27,415 nucleotides of DNA from a virus. The notes beneath the pieces are model-generated. The model was not told where the DNA came from. It did not search any database and saw only the letters and a list, made by a program, of their open reading frames with translations. Every line of letters begins with the position of its first letter. Position 1 is the first letter of the stretch. The stretch spans positions 796-28,210 of the IMG/VR virus record IMGVR_UViG_3300030110_005593. One strand, given 5' to 3'. A program made the translations under genes and the position numbers. Of the stretch, positions 14,426-25,323 are shown one piece after another.

Positions 14426-15673
14426 ATGCCGGAAAGTTTAGCTAACGAATTCATATCTGATTTCTACACTTCTCTACTTCATTTAAGTGGGGCTAAGCTT
14501 GAAAACAAATTAAATAGAGTTTTTGATGGTGCCGGTAACTCTACTGGATTGGCGTTAAGTGGTGAAAGAGTTATTATTAATAATTACGTATACCCAGTGG
14601 GATATGCATCACCAGTAGAGTGGTTAGATGCTTTTTGGCCAGTTGGTAGTATTAAACTGACATTTAATGATCAAAATCCAGGTGATTATTTATTACCACC
14701 ACGAAGTATACTTGACGGACAAGATCCAGATAATTTTCCAGGTATACAAGGAACTAAATGGGAGCGTGTCGGCGAGGGTAGATTTTTAGTAGGTGTAGGT
14801 GAAGATGAAATTAACGGTGCACTTAGAGATTTTTGCCCCGGAGGTAAAGAGGAAGAAGCTGCAGGATTAAGAGAAGGTTCTGGTGATGTTGCAGGGGAAT
14901 ACGAAGTAGAGTTACGCTTAGAACATATACCAGCACATAGTCACACAACTAATACTGGTGCACAAACAGTACAAGTTCGATCGCAAGGAGGGGGACAAAC
15001 ACTTTTTGAAGGTACACCTCCTGGTACAACAAATTCAACACAAAGCTTTGATCAACAACAACGCGCTAGAAATGCCTTACTAGTAAATGTAATTAATTTT
15101 GATGGTGATCGAACTATTGGATCTGCTGGATTAAGTGAAGCAATATCTACAGGTTTTGATGAAGGACCGGGGATGATAGGGCCTATAATGTATGGGTTAG
15201 ATTTAGGTTTTACAAGAGATACTTCTCGTGAGTATAGCCCAGGTGAACGATCAAAATTCGAATCTGTTGAAGGTTATAAAGCTGCAGGCGGGTTTCTATA
15301 TCAAGATAACGATGCAAATTGGCCTAACTATAAAGAAATGATAGGTATATGGAATGGTGAAACACGGTTTGTAGCTGATTTGTCTTCACAAGGTCAACGC
15401 CGTGGTGTTAATCCGGAATTCGGTGCTGTGGCAGAAAGCGCTAATCCTTATACTATTGCTAAATCATTTGGTGCTGTAGATTATACTGATGCGGTAGCTG
15501 GTGAATTTTTAGCACAACATAATAAAACACAAACAACAACAGCTGATAGAGAGGTTGTTGATATAGTTGAAGGATTAGCTCAAAATAGAGCAACAAATTT
15601 TGTAGGGGATAATGAGCCGCATAACAACATACCACCATCATATGGTATATACATTTGGAAAAGAGTAGAATAA
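14426..15673 (+). CDS. gp10-C-terminal-like tail fibre/baseplate pin protein, paralog of the 11562 product
   Basis: A 415-residue protein that aligns by eye with the first ~447 residues of the preceding gene product. Shared landmarks, in order, are SDFYTSLLHLSG, DGAGNSTG, RVIINNY, PVEWLDAFWPVGSI, GTKWERVGEGRFLVGVG, LEHIPAHSH and, at the very end, HNNIPPSYGIYIWKRVE. These are the features of the T4 gp10 C-terminal / collar-type domain, here with a ~200-residue insertion after the HxH motif (a frequent site of variation in such proteins). It ends exactly where the longer paralog continues into the poly-glycine adhesin. It could be the plain fibre form, a chaperone-like partner or an alternative receptor binder. 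The next gene starts 3 bases after its stop. Confidence 0.75.
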   Translation: MPESLANEFISDFYTSLLHLSGAKLENKLNRVFDGAGNSTGLALSGERVIINNYVYPVGYASPVEWLDAFWPVGSIKLTFNDQNPGDYLLPPRSILDGQDPDNFPGIQGTKWERVGEGRFLVGVGEDEINGALRDFCPGGKEEEAAGLREGSGDVAGEYEVELRLEHIPAHSHTTNTGAQTVQVRSQGGGQTLFEGTPPGTTNSTQSFDQQQRARNALLVNVINFDGDRTIGSAGLSEAISTGFDEGPGMIGPIMYGLDLGFTRDTSREYSPGERSKFESVEGYKAAGGFLYQDNDANWPNYKEMIGIWNGETRFVADLSSQGQRRGVNPEFGAVAESANPYTIAKSFGAVDYTDAVAGEFLAQHNKTQTTTADREVVDIVEGLAQNRATNFVGDNEPHNNIPPSYGIYIWKRVE

Positions 15674-15676
15674 ATT

Positions 15677-17314
15677 ATGGCAAACGTAACTATAGTAAAA
15701 TTAAAAATTAGAAGAGGGTCTGATGCTCAACGTAAAACTATTGTCTTAGATCAAGGTGAAGTTGGTTATACGTTAGATACTAGAAGATTGTTTGTAGGGG
15801 ATGGTGCAACGGAGGGCGGCCAGTCTGTAGGAGCTAAAACAGTTGGGCCTTTTAATGATAAAGCTAGTCTAGGTACAGCTGCTGGGGAGTCTCCAGGTTT
15901 ACAGATTGGAGATATAGGGTATGCAGAAAGTAAATTATATACGCTTACCTCAACAATATATACTAACGATTTATCTGGTTGGGCTTATATAGGCCCTAAA
16001 CCTGATGGTACATTTGTAGATTTTGTTGGTGGTTCTGGAACAGATCAAAACTTTTTAACTATTAAAAAGAATCCCGGGGCTATTGATAGTCAATACATGT
16101 CACAAGCTGTTTTTGGTAGAGGTCTTCTTTCCTCTTATAACGTAACTGACGGAGGAACAGTAGAAGTTGGTATAAATACTAACTATTTAGAATTATCTGC
16201 TTCCGGGGTTGGAGGTACCACAAATATTATAGCACCGAAAGCAAACTCTGTAACAGAACGAGAAATATCACCTACTATATTTGATAAAGGCATATTTGGA
16301 GGCTCGGGGGCAGGAGCGGGTGGTTTTAATAAGATATCGCTATCGATAAATACTGATCAATTTCAGTTTGATACTAATAATAGGTTAGAAATTAAAGCGT
16401 TTGGAAATAAGTCTGATGGTGGCTCTCTATCAATTCCAACGCAGTTATGGGCTGGTGATTCCGGGCAAAATTTAGGTACTGGTCTTTCTTTAAATTCTGA
16501 TAATAAGTTACAAGCAGCATTTCGTGGGGTAGGCGAGGGTGCTCCAATTTCTTTAACTGACGGCTTGTTATCGTTGAAAGGTGGGACTTCTGCTGCACAG
16601 GAATTTCCATTCCTCGATACTCGAGAAGGGGTTATTACCGAAATTCAAAGCTCAATTTACGATATGGTAACTGCTAAAGGATTATCAGGTGATAATGCTG
16701 GAGATGGTGTACCTATTGGTTCTATTATACCACATGCAGCGGCCTTTACGAAGATCCCCGCAGGTTATCTTTTATGCGATGGCACAGATGTTTCTAGAAC
16801 AGCGTATAAAGCTCTATTTGATGTAATTGGAACAACTTATGGTAGTAGGCTTGGAACTACCTTTACATTACCTAATTTAACTGGTGGTAATGTAGGGTTA
16901 TATGGAGCTGACGCGGTAGCTACTGGTGCTAATTCGAATACACCCGGTGGTGCAGGTACTTCTGACACTATATACCTATCAGGTACAAAAGCATCAACTT
17001 ACTCTAGTGTTGATTCAGTTACAACTGAATTTGGTTTAAGTGCAACGGCTGTTAACTTTATTATAAAGGCTCTTAAAGATCCGTTATTGAATATTTTTAA
17101 CGGAGCGCCCGACCAAGTAAGTAAAGGTTATTTAGATAACAACGGTCCTCAAGGTGGACCGGTTTTAGAAAATCAAGTATATGAATGTATAGACAATTCC
17201 GGTGAACGAACCCTTCTTTCATCTGCTGGATTTATTAGATTTGGATTATCTGGTACAACAAGAAATACAGATGAAGATTACGATAAATTTGCAATTCCAG
17301 TGTTTAGCTGGTAA
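15677..17314 (+). CDS. Tail fibre protein: RRGS-type N-terminal domain plus phage tail collar domain
   Basis: A 545-residue putative receptor-binding protein. Residues about 5-60 carry the fibre N-terminal signature LKIRRGSDAQRKTIVLDQGE, then GYTLDTRRLFVGDG, as in major-tropism-determinant-type and many other tail fibre N-termini. Residues about 75-340 are a Gly/Ser/Asn-rich beta shaft. Residues about 343-465 form a phage tail collar domain: IPAGYLLCDGTDVSRTAYKA, TFTLPNLTGG, and a closing NFIIKAL. The last ~75 residues form a C-terminal cap without known motif. It starts 3 bases after the previous stop, with only AATAAATT before the ATG and no Shine-Dalgarno. It is a paralog of the next gene. 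The fold call is strong and the receptor unknown. Confidence 0.78.
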   Translation: MANVTIVKLKIRRGSDAQRKTIVLDQGEVGYTLDTRRLFVGDGATEGGQSVGAKTVGPFNDKASLGTAAGESPGLQIGDIGYAESKLYTLTSTIYTNDLSGWAYIGPKPDGTFVDFVGGSGTDQNFLTIKKNPGAIDSQYMSQAVFGRGLLSSYNVTDGGTVEVGINTNYLELSASGVGGTTNIIAPKANSVTEREISPTIFDKGIFGGSGAGAGGFNKISLSINTDQFQFDTNNRLEIKAFGNKSDGGSLSIPTQLWAGDSGQNLGTGLSLNSDNKLQAAFRGVGEGAPISLTDGLLSLKGGTSAAQEFPFLDTREGVITEIQSSIYDMVTAKGLSGDNAGDGVPIGSIIPHAAAFTKIPAGYLLCDGTDVSRTAYKALFDVIGTTYGSRLGTTFTLPNLTGGNVGLYGADAVATGANSNTPGGAGTSDTIYLSGTKASTYSSVDSVTTEFGLSATAVNFIIKALKDPLLNIFNGAPDQVSKGYLDNNGPQGGPVLENQVYECIDNSGERTLLSSAGFIRFGLSGTTRNTDEDYDKFAIPVFSW

Positions 17315-17321
17315 ATAAATA
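17314..17321 (+). promoter_or_regulatory. T4-late-promoter-like box (AATAAATA)
   Basis: AATAAATA matches TATAAATA at 7 of 8 positions. It ends 9 bases before the ATG at 17331, the widest spacing of the set, which leaves a short leader of about 4 bases by T4 geometry. It overlaps the last base of the preceding stop. Confidence 0.42.
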
Positions 17322-17330
17322 TTAAAGACT

Positions 17331-19025
17331 ATGGCTGTAGAAATTTTAGAAAACACTTTATTAAAACTCCTCGTAAGAAGGGGAACTGATTCAGATAGAC
17401 GTAATATTGTTTTAACTGACGGTGAGCTTGGATATACGACAGATACAGAGCGTTTATTTGTTGGTAACTCTTTAGATAAAGGAGGTGTTGTAGTAGGAAA
17501 TAAATATCAAGGAGCTGCTGCTAATTTAACTACTCTAGCACCAGCGGTAACAGGAGACTATGCATATGAGACAGATACCAATGAATTAAAAGTCGTTACA
17601 GCTGGTACAGGAGCATCTCTTAGCAACTGGACTGTTGTAGCAAACAAAATAACAGCTGGTGATAAAACGTTAAATATTGATAATACTAGTAAGATTACTG
17701 TTGGTAAATCGACAGTTGGTGGAGGCCTTTCAGCGGATAATGTTGCCCACGACGCTTTAGGGGATTCAATTGAATTAGATGCGGCTAATAGAGTTGCATT
17801 AAGTGCTAATATTAATATTGATGGTATAACTAAAAGATCAGCTTCTTCAACATATGTATCATTACCCGGAGCACTTAAAATAGGTGCTTATGAATACGAT
17901 TGGCCGACTAACGATCCACAGGACACGTATTTCTTAGGGACAGACGGTAATAATAATTTAAAGTGGTCCATTCCAAATATAGTTGAATCAGCTGTCGCAC
18001 CAACAACTGCTACCACCCTTCCTACTGGTACAATAATTCCTTTTGTTTCAGCATATTCTGGTGCTAGTCCTATTCCCTATGGTTGGTTAGACTGCAACGG
18101 TGCTTTTGTAACCGCAGCAGATTATAGAGATTTATCTGCGGTAATAGGAATTACTTACGGAGGTAAGAAAGCAGATGGCTCTGCTACCACAGATCCAGAA
18201 CTTGCAACTACTTTTGCGTTACCTGATTTAACTAATAAATTAACATACGGTAGCTTTATTGATAATACAGCAGGTAGTAATCTCTATCCTATGGCTTCTG
18301 GTGTTGGGCTTTCTGCTTCACCTCTTTCTGCCTTTGGTGTTAATTATATTATTAAATCAGTTGGTGGGGTTACGAGTCCAACGTTAACTGTAAATAAAAA
18401 TCTTTCGGCATTTGCTAATGCAAATGATGTTACTGGTACAGAGTTTGACTTTTTAAGCGGTAATATTACCATTACAAGACCTACTCCGTTTTATAAGGAA
18501 TATAAAACACAAGGTCAATTTAGCGGTGCTCATCACTTTGTTATGCCACCAGGTGTACATTTTATTAAGTTTATTGCTACGGGATCTGGTGGAGCTTCCG
18601 GCCCGTCTTCTCAAGTTGGTGGAGCAGGTGCTACCGGTATAGGTTATCTTTCAGCTGCACCAGGAACTGTTTTTGCTATAACACCGGCGGCTGCTCCTGT
18701 TGACGGCTCTCCCCAGGGAGGAAGAAGTTCAATAATTGCAACAGCTAGCGGAGAGAGCAGTGTTACATTAGTAATAGCGAATGGTGGGAATGCGGAAAAT
18801 GCAGAAGCTGAATTTACAGACAACCCACATGTGTTAAACGGTATATCCGTCACGGGTGGTGGAGGAAAAGGTGGGTTTGCCGGAACAGGGAGGGGTGTAA
18901 ACACTTGGGGTGCAGCATCGTATTGGGGAGTAGTCCCCGCTCCAGGAGCTGGTCAAAGTACATGGAAAAGACGACCGTGGAGGACATTACCAGGGCCAGG
19001 TATAGTCGTACTTGAGTATAGCTAG
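17331..19025 (+). CDS. Tail fibre protein: RRGT-type N-terminus, tail collar domain and glycine-rich tip
   Basis: A 564-residue paralog of the preceding fibre. Residues about 10-55 contain LLVRRGTDSDRRNIVLTDGE and GYTTDTERLFVGN. Residues about 230-340 are a tail collar domain with PYGWLDCNGAFVTAADYRDL, TTFALPDLTNK and NYIIKSV. Unlike its neighbour it then adds a glycine-rich module (about 395-564) that starts GAHHFVMPPGVHFIKFIATG. This is the 'glycine-rich domain' pattern in which a strand ending in a GxGG turn precedes Gly/Ala-rich repeats, and it ends GPGIVVLEYS. The shaft between N-terminus and collar is much shorter than in the paralog (about 170 against 270 residues). It is probably an alternative receptor-binding tip. 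The next ORF follows after 32 bases. Confidence 0.78.
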   Translation: MAVEILENTLLKLLVRRGTDSDRRNIVLTDGELGYTTDTERLFVGNSLDKGGVVVGNKYQGAAANLTTLAPAVTGDYAYETDTNELKVVTAGTGASLSNWTVVANKITAGDKTLNIDNTSKITVGKSTVGGGLSADNVAHDALGDSIELDAANRVALSANINIDGITKRSASSTYVSLPGALKIGAYEYDWPTNDPQDTYFLGTDGNNNLKWSIPNIVESAVAPTTATTLPTGTIIPFVSAYSGASPIPYGWLDCNGAFVTAADYRDLSAVIGITYGGKKADGSATTDPELATTFALPDLTNKLTYGSFIDNTAGSNLYPMASGVGLSASPLSAFGVNYIIKSVGGVTSPTLTVNKNLSAFANANDVTGTEFDFLSGNITITRPTPFYKEYKTQGQFSGAHHFVMPPGVHFIKFIATGSGGASGPSSQVGGAGATGIGYLSAAPGTVFAITPAAAPVDGSPQGGRSSIIATASGESSVTLVIANGGNAENAEAEFTDNPHVLNGISVTGGGGKGGFAGTGRGVNTWGAASYWGVVPAPGAGQSTWKRRPWRTLPGPGIVVLEYS

Positions 19026-19460: not shown

Positions 19461-20360
19461 ATGGCCTTTCCTATCACTGTTACGTTACCAGATAATGCAA
19501 GATACTATAATTTTGTTGAAACAAAAAAGAACTTTAATGCTAATTATGATATAACTTGGTCGTTTTCCTATTACTTTCCAGCTAGTAGCTTCCAGTCCGG
19601 GCAACCCCACTACCAACTCGGATTTGCTACATTTCTTACTTCGTTATCAGCACCGATTAGCGCGTTACCTGGTCAATATTTAGGTGATCAAGATCCATTC
19701 GTCTGGTTAGATTCAGTAAATACAGAATCAGATGAAGCGTTACTAACAGAGGATAGTGAAATAATTAGACTTGAAACTTTTGAACTAAGTGGTTCCTTAG
19801 TAAAAGTAGCCTTTGATTCTACCGGGTTATATGCATTAACCGGGCGAAGTGGGCAGTGGGCGCCTTCGGGAGATGGAAAAAGACCCGGTGTTGGGCTAGA
19901 AACAGATTGCTTTAGGGAAGCACTAGTAGTAAGGGATCTTGATCATAATCTTGTAGCTAATGCACCGTTAAGTACAATGTCTACGTCTTTTAGTACGCTA
20001 TCAACAGATACATTCCGGACGCTTAGATTTAGATACATAAATTTAGGTCAAAAACTACATATTGATGTTCGTGAAAGCGATACAACGACATACTCCACAC
20101 TTACTACAATTAATTTAAATTATCGATTAAATAATGTAACTAACTTAGATAATGTATTTGTTGGATTTTCTCTTTGTACTCCTATATCCACGCGCACTGA
20201 TAACGCCGGCTATGCACTTAGTGCCGGTGACTTTTATTTAAGAAATTTTCACATTGAAGGTCATGAAGGTGATACTGTAGAGACTGAAACTGTTACAACA
20301 CCGTTGCTTAGTACTGTACCAAACATACCTACAACCACTGTAAGTAATATAACAGCGTAA
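19461..20360 (+). CDS. Lectin-like beta-sandwich fibre protein
   Basis: A 299-residue protein. Strand-like segments ITWSFSYYFPASSF (about 31-44), PGVGLETDCFREALVVRD, TFRTLRFRYINLGQKLHIDV and VFVGFSLCTPI, followed by FYLRNFHIEG, reproduce the order expected in an L-type lectin/concanavalin-type jelly roll (curved sheet, GVGxxxD-like strand, VGFS strand, final F-xL-xxFxIEG strand). After residue about 265 it becomes a Thr/Val-rich tail (ETETVTTPLL...TTTVSNITA), which resembles the Thr-rich start of the next protein. The next gene begins 4 bases after the stop, so the two are probably co-transcribed and may work together at the fibre. Glycan binding is inferred from the fold, and I cannot identify binding residues. 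Confidence 0.6.
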   Translation: MAFPITVTLPDNARYYNFVETKKNFNANYDITWSFSYYFPASSFQSGQPHYQLGFATFLTSLSAPISALPGQYLGDQDPFVWLDSVNTESDEALLTEDSEIIRLETFELSGSLVKVAFDSTGLYALTGRSGQWAPSGDGKRPGVGLETDCFREALVVRDLDHNLVANAPLSTMSTSFSTLSTDTFRTLRFRYINLGQKLHIDVRESDTTTYSTLTTINLNYRLNNVTNLDNVFVGFSLCTPISTRTDNAGYALSAGDFYLRNFHIEGHEGDTVETETVTTPLLSTVPNIPTTTVSNITA

Positions 20361-20364
20361 TATA

Positions 20365-23300
20365 ATGTCAACTACTCCATCAGCAAACGACAACGGCAAT
20401 ACCTCAACAACACCGATCGCGACTACAACATCAACAACTGTTGCAGCTGGTGCTACGTTGCTAAATAGTCGTATTGTAGGCCATGAATTAGGTCAGATAA
20501 AGTATCCAGTACAAGGAGATGGTGGAGTTGCAAAATCCTATGCTAACACGTCAGGTAGTGTACAATTAGTATCTGTTGGAATTGATACTAACTATACCGG
20601 TAAATTAACTTATGAAGTTTTTGATATATACGGGGAGGGAGGTGCAGCGGATCCAGAAGTTGTTTTTAGTGGTGAGACAAGTGTAACTAATTGGGATCCA
20701 AGCTCACAAACTGGTGTTATATTAATAAATGCTATAATTCCTTGTAGAGCTGACATGTTAACCTTTGATGGTAGCATGGATCTACAAGTAGTAATTAAAG
20801 ACGAACTTAAGCAACCTGTATATCATAATATAAATGTACCGCAGCCTGAATCTGTAACAGAAGCAGATGAGAAAAAAGAAGCAGATGAAGCTAGATCTAA
20901 AGATACATTAACTAAGCGCTTAGAAGAACTTAAAAGTCTCGAAGCTCAACGTTCTAGAGAAACAGAATATTCTGATGAGTCTAAAGAAGAAGATAGCACT
21001 AATCCGCCAGCAGATCCAGGAAGTGTAGCAGAGGAACCAAATGTTAATAAAATAGGCGATCAATATGATAAGAGTGACCTTACAAGAGATTTAATTGTAT
21101 CCGGAAAATCACGTGTAATTTTTCGCGGTAGTGAGAAGCCACCTGTTCCTGGGGATCAGGTTTATGTTGTAAGTCAGAGAGACGTTACCTTTACTGTTAA
21201 CCCGTATGATGAAATCTCAGTATCGTCCGGAAAGGTAATGACTTTTCTCTCTAACGATGTAGCTCTAACTAAAACCACACAAGGAACTAAAAAGGGAGAT
21301 GTTGTAATTATTGTAGTATCTGATCCAAAAACAGATTCTGGTACATCACCTGATCCGGGTTCAACTGACGCCGGGACAACAAATGATCCTGGTACAACAC
21401 CTGATACTGGAACAACACCTGAGTCCGGGGTAAATACTTACGCTTCAACTACTCCGGTAGCAGAGCCAACAACAACTACAACTACAACTTCCCCTCCGCC
21501 TACTACAACTACTACTACAACAACAACTACAACGGTAAATCCTTTAGGTGAAACTGATGGTACCACCACAACGACTACGACGACAGAAGATCCTAGTGAT
21601 CCAAGACTGCGATTTGATCCAACTACGACTACTACTACAACAAGCGATCCCGGTGATGGTGTAACAACGACAACAACCATGTCTGTAGAAGATCAACAAG
21701 CGTTAAATGATTTATTAAACAGAGCAAGGACGGCAGACGGGACTTATGGTGGGGGAACATCAACAACTACTAGCACCACTACAACCACAACAGCAGAGCC
21801 AACAACAACTACCACTACAACTAGTACGACGACAAGAGATCCAAATAAACCTCCTGTTGATCCGAGATACACCACTACTACTACCACAACAACTGAAGAC
21901 CCAGTGATTAGTCTGAAAAGTCTCCGTTCTTCAGCCCCCTCCGAAGAAATAAGCAGTAGCCTGTATTCTGGTAGTCAAGATGTACCAAAAAATCATGTTG
22001 GTAGTCAAGAAGAATTACTTACAGCGTTAGAAACTTTTGCAAATATATTTTTAACACAGGACTTCGAAATAACAGATATTATTAACGTACCGGCTGGTGT
22101 TACTATAGCTGGTATTAATGACCCAAAAATTACTATGCGTGATACTTCTGTAGCGTTTAAGGTTACAGCCTCAAATGTTACATTAGATGGGTTTACAATA
22201 CAGAGTGCCGAACGTGGTATTAAGAGTAATGGACTTGGAGTTCTAGTTACTCGACCAGAGCCAGGATCACTAGTCAATGTTTCAAATGTTAGTATAACTA
22301 ACATGACTTTTATTGATATAGGAGCTACTAATCGTGATCTGTATGGTGCAATATCAGTTAGGGGTTATAACGCAACGCATAGTAATCCAAAGGTAAATGA
22401 TTTAGTTCCTATACTAAATACAAAAGCTAAACCGTTTAATAATATTAGTATTGATCGTTGTACATTTACTGATTCAGGTAATAATGCTATTGATTTTTGG
22501 ACTGTTAATAATGGAAATATTTCTAATTGTACTATTGATGGAGTTAGTAATAGCAGTTGGAATAGAGGTAATGGTATACGAGGTGTTGATTTACGGGGCG
22601 CGGAAATATCCAATAACTATATAAGAAATGTATCTCAAGTAGGTATTAAGATTTTAGGTCCGAGAACTGAAGATATTAACCTCAGTGACAATCAAATTGA
22701 AGATTGCCCGGGTGTAGCAGGTGTTGGTATAATGATCTATTACGGAGCTAGTTCAGTAGTTGCCCAACATAATGAAATTCAAAATTGCACTAACGGGATC
22801 TTTATTACAGGTGGTTGTACCTTTATCGATCTTAAAGAAAATCTTCTCCACACTATTAAAAACAGCCCCTTGTCAATAGGAGGATTAAGCAATAATATTA
22901 ACGTTACCGGTAATGAGTTTTTATCTACATTAGGGTCTACAGTAATTAAAGTGTTGCAGACGTGGAGTGTAACTCTCGATAGTAACCATATTATAGATCA
23001 TGATTTTGAAATAGGACCAGGATCGGATCCAAAAAGAGGTATTTTAATTGGACAGACAAATGGTACAATCTTAACAAATAATAAAATTGATACTGTTTAT
23101 CCTTCTACAGATAAAAAGAGTTGCCCAATATATATTTGGAGAATATTTCCACAAAATCCGTTATTAAGTGACGGGCAAGAGGCTACTCCAACAGATAACC
23201 CAGACGCATTTCCATGGTTACGGTATTTTCAAGGTACGCCTCTTGTACCAGGAATTGAGGGTGGTGTTGAGGGATTAAAATATGCACGTAAGGAAATTAC

Positions 23301-24477
23301 TAGCGGCGAATTTATATACGGTAAAAGATCTGGAAGTGTAGCTAGTAGCAGTGCTTGGCTCACTGTTAATAGTACCATTAATAAGAATGTCGATGAGTCT
23401 GGTGAGCTTTTAGAATATTGTGTTGATGGTGGTCAAGTTATAACTTCAGATGGTAGAGGTAATAGAGTAGACGTTAACGGTAGTGATGATGGTGATGGTG
23501 ATGGTGATTCACCACCACCACCAGCTGATGAAGTTAAGTATGTTTTAACAGTTACAAATATGGCCCCGGAAAATATAAAAGTTAACGGTACGCTGATTGG
23601 CGCCGGGGGTTCTTTTGACATTACACAACACGAAAATTCATTTAATCTTGATCTAAATTTCTTAAACTATCGGTTGCCAGCGAATAAGCAGTTACCATTA
23701 CAGACTGCTGGAGATAATTTTAGTTACTCAGTTGGTGAAGGTGGTATTGCTGCAGAACAAAGAGGCGACCCCCCTCGGTGGAGATCTTCAATAAATGGAT
23801 ACATTATTGAGCCTTCTGAGGACGGGAACTATAGTGGCTCTTTTACGTTTTCACCGCATTCTGAAGTTGAGGAACGTGACAGTAGTGATGACGGTAGTAG
23901 TGATGATGACGGTGGTAGTGATGATGACGGTGGTAGTGAGGGCGGTAGTAGTGAGGGCGGTAGTAGTGATGACGGTAGTAGTGATGGATCCGGAGAAACG
24001 CCTTTTTGGCCACGAATAATAGAGATAGATGATAGTTCGGGTCCTTTTCTAGATTTTATTCCAACTATTGAAAGAACTCCACCACCGTGGACGTTACCAC
24101 CACCAGTAACATGGACGCCTCCACCATATTTAACACCACCTCCACCGTTAACCGGTACAGGTTCTCTTTTCCAACCACCCACAGGCTGTATAGAGCCGCC
24201 GGTGGATCCACCTATTGAAAAGCCTGAAGAACCGGAAGATCCAGAAATACCTACCACGACGCCGCCACCGCAGGAGCAGTGTGTATACCCTGCTCCGATC
24301 ATACCACTACAACCTAATTTTTATAGAGATGACGATATCTTACTTCTTACATCAACCACAACTACTGAACCTCCGGTGGATGATGAACCGTGGGATGCTC
24401 CGGATATTGAAATTGACCCAGATCCGCAAGATGTAGATTGTGAGGTAGCAGAAGATTGCAATAGCTTGAGTTACTAG
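20365..24477 (+). CDS. Giant tail fibre: mucin-like poly-Thr linkers, right-handed beta-helix, Asp/Ser and Pro-rich tail
   Basis: A 1370-residue modular virion protein. Residues 1-30 are Ser/Thr-rich. About 35-160 is a beta domain. About 165-210 is a charged helix, probably coiled coil (TKRLEELKSLEAQRSRETEY). About 240-318 is a second beta domain. 369-510 is a mucin-like region with six or more runs of 6-11 threonines separated by short Pro/Asp/Gly pieces. About 555-920 is a right-handed beta-helix of the pectin-lyase type, shown by repeated N-x-I rungs roughly every 20-25 residues (ISNCTIDG, ISNNYIRN, LSDNQIED, AQHNEIQN, LTNNKIDT). About 1057-1165 is another beta domain, then a Ser/Asp/Gly repeat (1173-1210) and a Pro-rich tail with four cysteines. 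Beta-helices of this kind form fibre shafts or depolymerase domains, but I see no clear catalytic triad. It lies 4 bases after the lectin-like gene. Confidence 0.7.
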   Translation: MSTTPSANDNGNTSTTPIATTTSTTVAAGATLLNSRIVGHELGQIKYPVQGDGGVAKSYANTSGSVQLVSVGIDTNYTGKLTYEVFDIYGEGGAADPEVVFSGETSVTNWDPSSQTGVILINAIIPCRADMLTFDGSMDLQVVIKDELKQPVYHNINVPQPESVTEADEKKEADEARSKDTLTKRLEELKSLEAQRSRETEYSDESKEEDSTNPPADPGSVAEEPNVNKIGDQYDKSDLTRDLIVSGKSRVIFRGSEKPPVPGDQVYVVSQRDVTFTVNPYDEISVSSGKVMTFLSNDVALTKTTQGTKKGDVVIIVVSDPKTDSGTSPDPGSTDAGTTNDPGTTPDTGTTPESGVNTYASTTPVAEPTTTTTTTSPPPTTTTTTTTTTTVNPLGETDGTTTTTTTTEDPSDPRLRFDPTTTTTTTSDPGDGVTTTTTMSVEDQQALNDLLNRARTADGTYGGGTSTTTSTTTTTTAEPTTTTTTTSTTTRDPNKPPVDPRYTTTTTTTTEDPVISLKSLRSSAPSEEISSSLYSGSQDVPKNHVGSQEELLTALETFANIFLTQDFEITDIINVPAGVTIAGINDPKITMRDTSVAFKVTASNVTLDGFTIQSAERGIKSNGLGVLVTRPEPGSLVNVSNVSITNMTFIDIGATNRDLYGAISVRGYNATHSNPKVNDLVPILNTKAKPFNNISIDRCTFTDSGNNAIDFWTVNNGNISNCTIDGVSNSSWNRGNGIRGVDLRGAEISNNYIRNVSQVGIKILGPRTEDINLSDNQIEDCPGVAGVGIMIYYGASSVVAQHNEIQNCTNGIFITGGCTFIDLKENLLHTIKNSPLSIGGLSNNINVTGNEFLSTLGSTVIKVLQTWSVTLDSNHIIDHDFEIGPGSDPKRGILIGQTNGTILTNNKIDTVYPSTDKKSCPIYIWRIFPQNPLLSDGQEATPTDNPDAFPWLRYFQGTPLVPGIEGGVEGLKYARKEITSGEFIYGKRSGSVASSSAWLTVNSTINKNVDESGELLEYCVDGGQVITSDGRGNRVDVNGSDDGDGDGDSPPPPADEVKYVLTVTNMAPENIKVNGTLIGAGGSFDITQHENSFNLDLNFLNYRLPANKQLPLQTAGDNFSYSVGEGGIAAEQRGDPPRWRSSINGYIIEPSEDGNYSGSFTFSPHSEVEERDSSDDGSSDDDGGSDDDGGSEGGSSEGGSSDDGSSDGSGETPFWPRIIEIDDSSGPFLDFIPTIERTPPPWTLPPPVTWTPPPYLTPPPPLTGTGSLFQPPTGCIEPPVDPPIEKPEEPEDPEIPTTTPPPQEQCVYPAPIIPLQPNFYRDDDILLLTSTTTTEPPVDDEPWDAPDIEIDPDPQDVDCEVAEDCNSLSY
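21469..21894 (+). repeat. Degenerate ACN repeat encoding poly-threonine linkers
   Basis: Runs of ACN codons separated by short Pro, Asp, Gly and Glu interruptions, including a 142-base central part without Thr runs (21664-21760 approximately). ACA, ACT, ACG and ACC are mixed within each run, so there is no uniform trinucleotide tract. The protein repeat is therefore cleaner than the DNA repeat, which fits selection on the peptide. The opposite strand reads as a valine-rich frame, which is a shadow. Confidence 0.85.
23881..23994 (+). repeat. Tandem Ser/Asp/Gly repeat in the fibre C-terminus
   Basis: Near-identical 15- to 18-base units built on AGTAGTGATGACGGT and GGTAGTGATGATGAC encode SSDDG, SSDDDGG, SDDDGG and SEGGS units at residues 1173-1210. 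Here the DNA itself is repeated almost exactly, unlike the poly-Thr region, so length variation by slippage is plausible. The peptide is highly acidic and resembles a flexible or Ca-binding linker. Confidence 0.75.
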
Positions 24478-24489
24478 TAATTATTTTAA

Positions 24490-25323
24490 GTGACAAAGCT
24501 TACTATAGGCACGACTGTGTATGATGATTACGATGGACTATACTTTACTATACAATCCATTAGGTTAAATAATCCTGAAATTTTAAATCGAATTGAGTTT
24601 GTTATTATTAATAACAACCCTTCGTCTGCTAGCGGAAAAGAAATTCGTAAAATTTTAGACTGGATTGAAGAGCCTGTTACATATCTAGAATTTTCAAAAT
24701 ATAACACACCCTTCTTAAAAGGTAGAGTATTTGATTTAGCAGATACGGAATATGTACTTGTTTTAGATTGTCATGTACTTTTAGATCCCGGGTGTCTAAC
24801 CAAACTATTAAACTTCTATGATCAAAAGAAAGATGAGGGTAATTTATTACAGGGACCTCTAATATATGATAATCTTACTGGTATAGCTACACATTATGAC
24901 TTATCGAAGTGGGGGAGTCATATGTGGGGTACTTGGGCAACAGATGAAAGAGGTTTAGATAAAAACGCTGAACCGTTTGAAATTCCAGCACAAGGTATGG
25001 GGCTATTCTCTTGTAGAAAGAGCTCATGGTTAGGTTTTAATAAAGCGTTTAGAGGTTTTGGAGGTGAAGAGGGATATATACACGAAAAATATCGCAATTA
25101 TGGACGAAAGACTCTATGCTTACCTTTTTTAAGGTGGTTACATCGATTTGGTCGACCAAACGGGGCCACATTTAAACCTAATATAAAAGATAAATTTCGT
25201 AACTATATGATAGGGTTTCGTGAAACCGGGAAAGATACAGCTGAAGTTATCAAACAATTTAAAGGCGTTATTTCAAAAGAATATATACAAACAGTTGAGC
25301 AAGAACTACTACAAATTACCTAA
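24490..25323 (+). CDS. GT-A fold glycosyltransferase with DxH motif (GT2/GT27-like)
   Basis: A 277-residue, probably cytoplasmic sugar transferase using a nucleotide-sugar donor. The GTG at 24490 is chosen because the first strand of the GT-A fold, KLTIGTTVYDDYDGL, follows at once and no in-frame ATG precedes it. The acceptor/donor core has FVIINNNPS at 37-45 and the metal-site strand YVLVLDCHVLLDPG at 88-101, where D93-C-H95 replaces the usual DxD. DxH is characteristic of polypeptide GalNAc-transferases. Further parallels to that family are GMGLFSCRKSSW (169-180), FRGFGGEEGYIHEKYRNYG (187-205) and LRWLHRFGR (214-222), which correspond to the GGLFxI, WGGEN and GHxxR regions. There is no lectin domain and no transmembrane anchor. 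It lies 12 bases after a poly-Thr fibre gene. The fold is firm; donor and acceptor are inferred. Confidence 0.75.
   Translation: MTKLTIGTTVYDDYDGLYFTIQSIRLNNPEILNRIEFVIINNNPSSASGKEIRKILDWIEEPVTYLEFSKYNTPFLKGRVFDLADTEYVLVLDCHVLLDPGCLTKLLNFYDQKKDEGNLLQGPLIYDNLTGIATHYDLSKWGSHMWGTWATDERGLDKNAEPFEIPAQGMGLFSCRKSSWLGFNKAFRGFGGEEGYIHEKYRNYGRKTLCLPFLRWLHRFGRPNGATFKPNIKDKFRNYMIGFRETGKDTAEVIKQFKGVISKEYIQTVEQELLQIT

Follow-up and report, generated by a model that had tools for sequence, protein, structure and literature searches.

The enzymes closest in predicted shape to the one described here are the polypeptide GalNAc-transferases of animals and Toxoplasma, which make up family GT27. CAZy families are defined by sequence similarity, and a ricin-type C-terminal lectin domain is typical, though not universal, in GT27. 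Glycosylation of phage virions already has precedent, since mycobacteriophage virions carry glycans on the C termini of capsid and tail tube proteins (Freeman et al. 2023, as cited in PMC12619734). Flagellins of Caulobacter are modified by FlmG, a cytoplasmic O-glycosyltransferase (PMC7591256). Within the literature searched, which was covered in part, there was no report of poly-Thr phage fibres paired with glycosyltransferases, and no mucin-type, GT27-shaped system common to phages and bacteria was found.

The window, i.e., the whole stretch of DNA that was analysed, comprises 27,415 bases out of a 28,508-base uncultivated virus record. Its gene order runs from a T4-like baseplate through collar/Mtd_N short-fibre genes and a 299-aa protein to a 1370-aa fibre and a 277-aa glycosyltransferase (GT). 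The fibre and GT reading frames lie exactly where the initial annotation had put them.

14426..19025, + strand: three tail/short-fibre genes, one Gp10_C-like and two with Mtd_N and Collar (Pfam, PHROGs)
19461..20360, + strand: conserved 299-aa protein 5' of the fibre, with homologues in L028, L041 and L032
20365..24477, + strand: ORF for a tail fibre-like protein of 1370 aa with Beta_helix PF13229, the putative substrate
21352..21924, + strand: Thr-rich, mucin-like stretch of the fibre, aa 330–520, with 8 runs of at least 5 Thr
24436..24474, + strand: C-terminal tag of the fibre, DCEVAEDCNSLSY, aa 1358–1370, consensus Cx(3-6)C[NK]xLx[FY]-stop
24490..25323, + strand: GT-A glycosyltransferase with GT27-like predicted fold, 277 aa, GTG start, PF00535 at E 2.5e-9

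In the sister phages L028, L041 and L032, the GT directly follows the homologue of the 299-aa protein and the fibre is missing. The window's primase is encoded on the opposite strand; the L028 primase is 71% identical to it and ~27% identical to the primases of T4-like phages and cyanophages. Pfam and PHROGs annotation of the window recognised no sugar-pathway gene besides the GT. A conserved TAATTAT between fibre and GT was considered as a special signal and rejected; it is probably a generic expression motif, because similar AT-rich words stand before most window genes. Such words (ATAAATA/TAATTAT) replace a Shine-Dalgarno sequence before many start codons of the window (e.g., 3646, 7119, 17316 and 24478) and could be an initiation or late-promoter-like motif.

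The initial annotation likened the GT to polypeptide GalNAc-transferases by its motifs D93-C-H95, GFGGEE (G189–E194) and LHRFGR (L217–R222), all of which are present in the 277-aa ORF. Among 52 non-redundant relatives, D93, H95, G189, F190, G191, E193, E194 and H218 are invariant. E194 occupies the position that is a catalytic acid in inverting GT-A enzymes such as B4GalT1 and Asn in GT27. The protein is a single domain that lacks the C-terminal ricin-type lectin domain. Its Pfam matches are of the GT2 type only, with Glycos_transf_2 (PF00535) at 37.7 bits against a gathering cut-off of 23.3 (E 2.5e-9), and PHROGs and NCBIfam gave no match. A profile of the GT family searched against PDB sequences matched TarP, chondroitin synthase/polymerase, the 5tze/5tz8 GT and dolichol-P-mannose synthase, and it found no GT27 match at E values up to 10. 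The GT2 profile matches span only the nucleotide-binding half of the enzyme. Judged by sequence, the enzyme lies outside GT27, with GT2 enzymes (TarP and chondroitin polymerase) as its nearest solved relatives. At least 262 relatives occur in IMG/VR, and at least 479 with a broader profile. The window's enzyme had no tblastn match at E 1e-3 in 50,697 sequenced phage records, and another family member used as query found only a 22% identical GT in sequenced phages.

Predicted structure ranks the families differently. An AlphaFold2 model made with an alignment of relatives as input has a pLDDT of 92.6 and a pTM of 0.91, and the best 50 PDB chains found with it by Foldseek are all polypeptide GalNAc-transferases. 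The top 29 PDB entries by VIA-align are all GT27 (Z 20.2–23.7, rmsd 2.6–3.3, 246–263 of 277 residues), with 13–17% identity in the structure alignments. Below them stand the chondroitin polymerase K4CP (18.4), GlfT2 (18.3), RmlT (17.3) and LARGE1 (17.0). In this ranking, which rests on the single model of the window's enzyme, GT27 GalNAc-transferases are nearest and lie above every GT2 structure. The proposed likeness therefore stands in predicted fold and motifs but not in sequence, where GT2 is closer. Because structure ranks GT27 first and the sequence profile finds GT2, the enzyme is GT27-like in its modelled shape and not a GT27 member by sequence. A common fold with GT27 does not prove a common acceptor.

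The fibre combines the Thr-rich stretch with a beta-helix, an Asp/Ser/Gly repeat, a Pro-rich end and the C-terminal tag. Thr makes up 42% of aa 331–520, and successive runs of 7, 11, 8, 7, 5, 6, 7 and 8 Thr lie within aa 369–510. The six or more runs of 6–11 Thr first reported prove to be seven, against a chance expectation of 0.006 at the fibre's Thr frequency. The tract is encoded by mixed codons (ACA 25, ACT 23, ACC 9, ACG 6), so the enrichment is at the protein level and not that of a simple DNA microsatellite. The Beta_helix match covers aa 692–852 (E 1.3e-12). After it, an Asp/Ser/Gly-rich tandem repeat with units of 15–18 bases occupies window positions 23881–23986, followed by the Pro-rich stretch. 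Scans of viral contigs with the beta-helix and with the 299-aa protein, at a sensitivity limited to close relatives, found no relatives of either.

Viral loci were fetched by the GT alone (80 loci), one locus was counted per 95% cluster (n = 52), and an ORF with at least 12 Thr in 40 residues was called Thr-rich. Across the 80 loci, the ORF that ends ~14–17 bases 5' of the GT is usually Thr-rich. Position −1 holds a Thr-rich ORF in 33 of 52 non-redundant phage loci, compared with 6 of 325 at positions 3–6 genes off. When Thr tracts and the final 20 residues are masked out, the partners from all GT loci form 62 BLAST groups, a figure inflated by short masked remnants; the pairing is therefore not just one fibre carried along. 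Distant phages with an untagged Thr-rich partner directly 5' of the GT include L398, L399/L400, L405/L415/L437, L458 and L544/L546. By eye, the partner at L405:8148-9989 appears to have a formylglycine-enzyme/C-type-lectin-like domain, of a kind that retroelements diversify.

Each element is also found by itself. Of 74 further viral loci with the GT, about 34, many of them short, lack a Thr-rich ORF, and some viral GTs are flanked by portal and capsid genes or belong to replication modules (e.g., L462). At L443:7638-14581, the GT lies between a portal gene and a GroES-like gene, 5' of the major capsid gene, an order that suggests a capsid target. Viral loci picked by (ACN)10 contain the GT in only 3 of 120 cases, so poly-Thr alone does not imply the enzyme.

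The C-terminal tag, absent from the initial annotation, has the consensus C, 3–6 residues, C, N or K, any residue, L, any residue, F or Y, stop. It is present on most phage partners, in 65 distinct versions on 128 proteins. Its regular expression matches 76 of 4367 ORFs in 81 phage loci, and nearly all of these are Thr-rich ORFs 5' of the GT; tandem Thr-rich neighbours are often tagged as well. The tag is carried by otherwise unrelated Thr-rich phage proteins, and its −5 residue is often Asp in phages without the GT.

Coupling of tag and GT appeared near perfect at first. Strict coupling was rejected once the window's lineage had been sampled by its primase: 30 loci had GT and tagged fibre, 7 GT only, 10 tagged fibre only and 33 neither. 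Among loci of this sample with tail genes, the counts were 21 with both, 6 with GT only, 7 with tag only and 5 with neither (Fisher p 0.26). GT-dependent Thr richness was likewise rejected: Thr in the last 70 residues differs overall (18 vs 6, p 4e-5), but complete tagged fibres of the window's lineage are equally Thr-rich with or without the GT (T40 p 0.89). Records with a tagged fibre and no adjacent GT lack the GT in their available sequence, including one of 170 kb. In that 170-kb tagged-fibre sister phage (G064, the record of L520), a 532-aa frame at 97156–98454 has two GT2 matches. Fibres lacking the GT could be unmodified, or could be served by a host or other GT. Because the tag also occurs without the GT, the likeliest reading is that it belongs to the fibre and may help to recruit the enzyme but is not dedicated to it. 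Its retention without the enzyme suggests a role in the fibre, e.g., in assembly or as a disulfide-closed tip. Enzyme and Thr fibre are thus associated yet separable, since the GT and tagged Thr-rich fibres each occur alone and some GTs lie elsewhere.

The family extends to bacteria, with 117 relatives of the GT in GTDB genomes (39–51% identity in the 80 loci fetched). There the GT domain usually stands within a longer protein, in most cases of ~480–1150 aa; in three proteins examined, the fused domains are HprK-related-kinase-like, DUF6065 and GT25. A Thr-rich ORF occurs in 29 of 44 long bacterial loci compared with 4 of 20 control loci (p 7e-4), the loci being phylogenetically non-independent. 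The controls were 20-kb regions that surround other GT2 genes in part of these genomes, and ORFs were counted in six frames, as greedy ORF picking undercounts in GC-rich bacteria. Most often the partner is a small protein that combines a Tat signal with a W-x-KP...PAHA segment and a Thr/Pro tail; some loci have two or more copies of it in tandem, and no specific NCBIfam family was found for it. These Thr-tailed Tat-signal peptides typically lie ~1 kb from the GT domain; at some loci this domain is joined to that of an HprK-related kinase. Genes of the PqqD type and of PF14907 are found near the fusions to HprK-like domains, as are Tat-exported Thr-rich peptides. Tat-signal, PAHA-motif, Thr/Pro-tailed proteins were seen at L209:7639-8902, L232:7266-8137, L272:1452-2916, L247:8165-8980 and L253:6570-7402. 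Co-occurrence of GT and Thr-rich protein, which the initial annotation had named as a check, proves wide: it spans several lineages of phages as well as bacteria, and the partners are unrelated. In the window's own lineage the two are separable.

On balance, the enzyme is probably a protein O-glycosyltransferase acting on the Thr stalk of the fibre. Two results favour this reading, namely the rank of GT27 among the structural matches and the repeated pairing with unrelated Thr-rich proteins in both viruses and bacteria; separability within the lineage, the GT2-like sequence and E194 temper it. The 277-aa protein, from a GT-A family with a predicted GT27-like fold, would work as a soluble polypeptide O-glycosyltransferase that depends on metal. 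It would act in the infected cell on newly made fibre, before assembly. D93xH95 would bind the nucleotide sugar and metal, with the invariant H218 a likely further ligand. A sugar, perhaps HexNAc, would be moved onto Thr hydroxyls in the Thr-rich part of the fibre, turning that part into a stalk that is glycosylated, extended and mucin-like. Which protein is modified, with what sugar and stereochemistry, at what time and to what benefit (a stiffer stalk, shielding from proteases, or adhesion) is inferred.

A protein O-glycosyltransferase could instead have another virion protein (capsid or other tail protein) as its main target, its proximity to the Thr fibre reflecting a shared tail module. 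L443 and L453, where the GT is flanked by portal and GroES/major capsid genes and lacks a Thr-rich neighbour, fit such a target, as do the sister phages that keep the GT without the Thr fibre and the mycobacteriophage capsid and tail tube glycans noted above. Adjacency to Thr-rich ORFs recurs with unrelated partners, also in bacteria, which makes this explanation rather unlikely. Thr stalk glycosylation also has a stricter version, in which the tag is a docking signal for the GT, and enzyme, tag and Thr tract are obligately linked as a module. A scan with two tag patterns found 19 two-Cys tagged ORFs in 17 loci, all of them Thr-rich and 15 of the loci with the GT. The −5 position is N or K in 60 of 63 GT+ tags vs 3 of 8 GT− tags, a preference that is possibly linked to the enzyme but is confounded by relatedness. 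The 10 sister loci with the tag and no GT leave an obligate module improbable. In an AlphaFold2 model of an in-frame tag-GT read-through, the tag had a pLDDT below 50, too low to be informative.

The enzyme could also be an ordinary GT2 whose acceptor is a polysaccharide of the host surface, a lipid-linked sugar or LPS, in which case the GT27 ranking would reflect the common GT-A fold. TarP and chondroitin polymerase are the best PDB sequence matches, PF00535 is a broad GT family and one bacterial relative has a GT25 domain. This is judged improbable as well, given that GT27 exceeds all GT2 structures by ~2–5 Z units over a full-length alignment, that the window has no further recognised sugar-pathway gene and that Thr-rich exported proteins are commoner beside the bacterial relatives than beside other GT2 genes. 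Glucosylation of hydroxymethylated DNA bases is a common role of phage GTs (PMC12619734), and some relatives do lie in replication modules, as in L462. It was rejected as very improbable here: a thymidylate-synthase-family hydroxymethylase (PF00303) was found in 0 of 15 long related phage records (80–212 kb, possibly incomplete), and bacteria carry the same family beside Thr-rich exported proteins.

If glycosylation of the Thr stalk is borne out, phages coat their own adhesion fibres with mucin-like glycans, and virion adsorption, stability and recognition would be affected. The bacterial members would offer glycoprotein engineering a poly-Thr glycosyltransferase that is compact and soluble, and they would bear on the origin of mucin-type glycosylation. 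More tentatively, phages and bacteria may share a mucin-type O-glycosylation of their own, in which a GT27-fold family serves tagged Thr-rich fibres in the former and, fused to HprK-like domains, Tat-exported Thr-rich peptides in the latter, maybe with common descent with the animal GalNAc-transferases.

The bacterial loci with HprK-related kinase A (TIGR04352) and PqqD-type genes have the same GT domain, there fused to HprK-like domains; in the phage, this domain stands by itself and is partnered by a fibre and not an exported peptide. FlmG shows that a soluble enzyme can O-glycosylate a filament protein in the cytoplasm and recognise its substrate by a part other than the catalytic domain; it differs in having its own substrate-binding domain and in using pseudaminic acid as the sugar (PMC7591256). 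Mycobacteriophage virion glycosylation, as cited in PMC12619734, is alike in kind, with a phage structural protein as the glycan carrier (here proposed). There, glycans are reported on capsid and tail tube C termini; here, the candidate carrier is a Thr-rich fibre of an unrelated lineage. With GT27 the phage enzyme shares a whole-chain structural match, DxH, a GGE motif, a downstream invariant His and a putative substrate rich in Thr with Pro. It is unlike GT27 in having no profile-detectable sequence similarity, no lectin domain and GGEE in place of GGEN. GT27 works in the Golgi, whereas the phage-family enzyme would work in the phage or bacterial cytosol.
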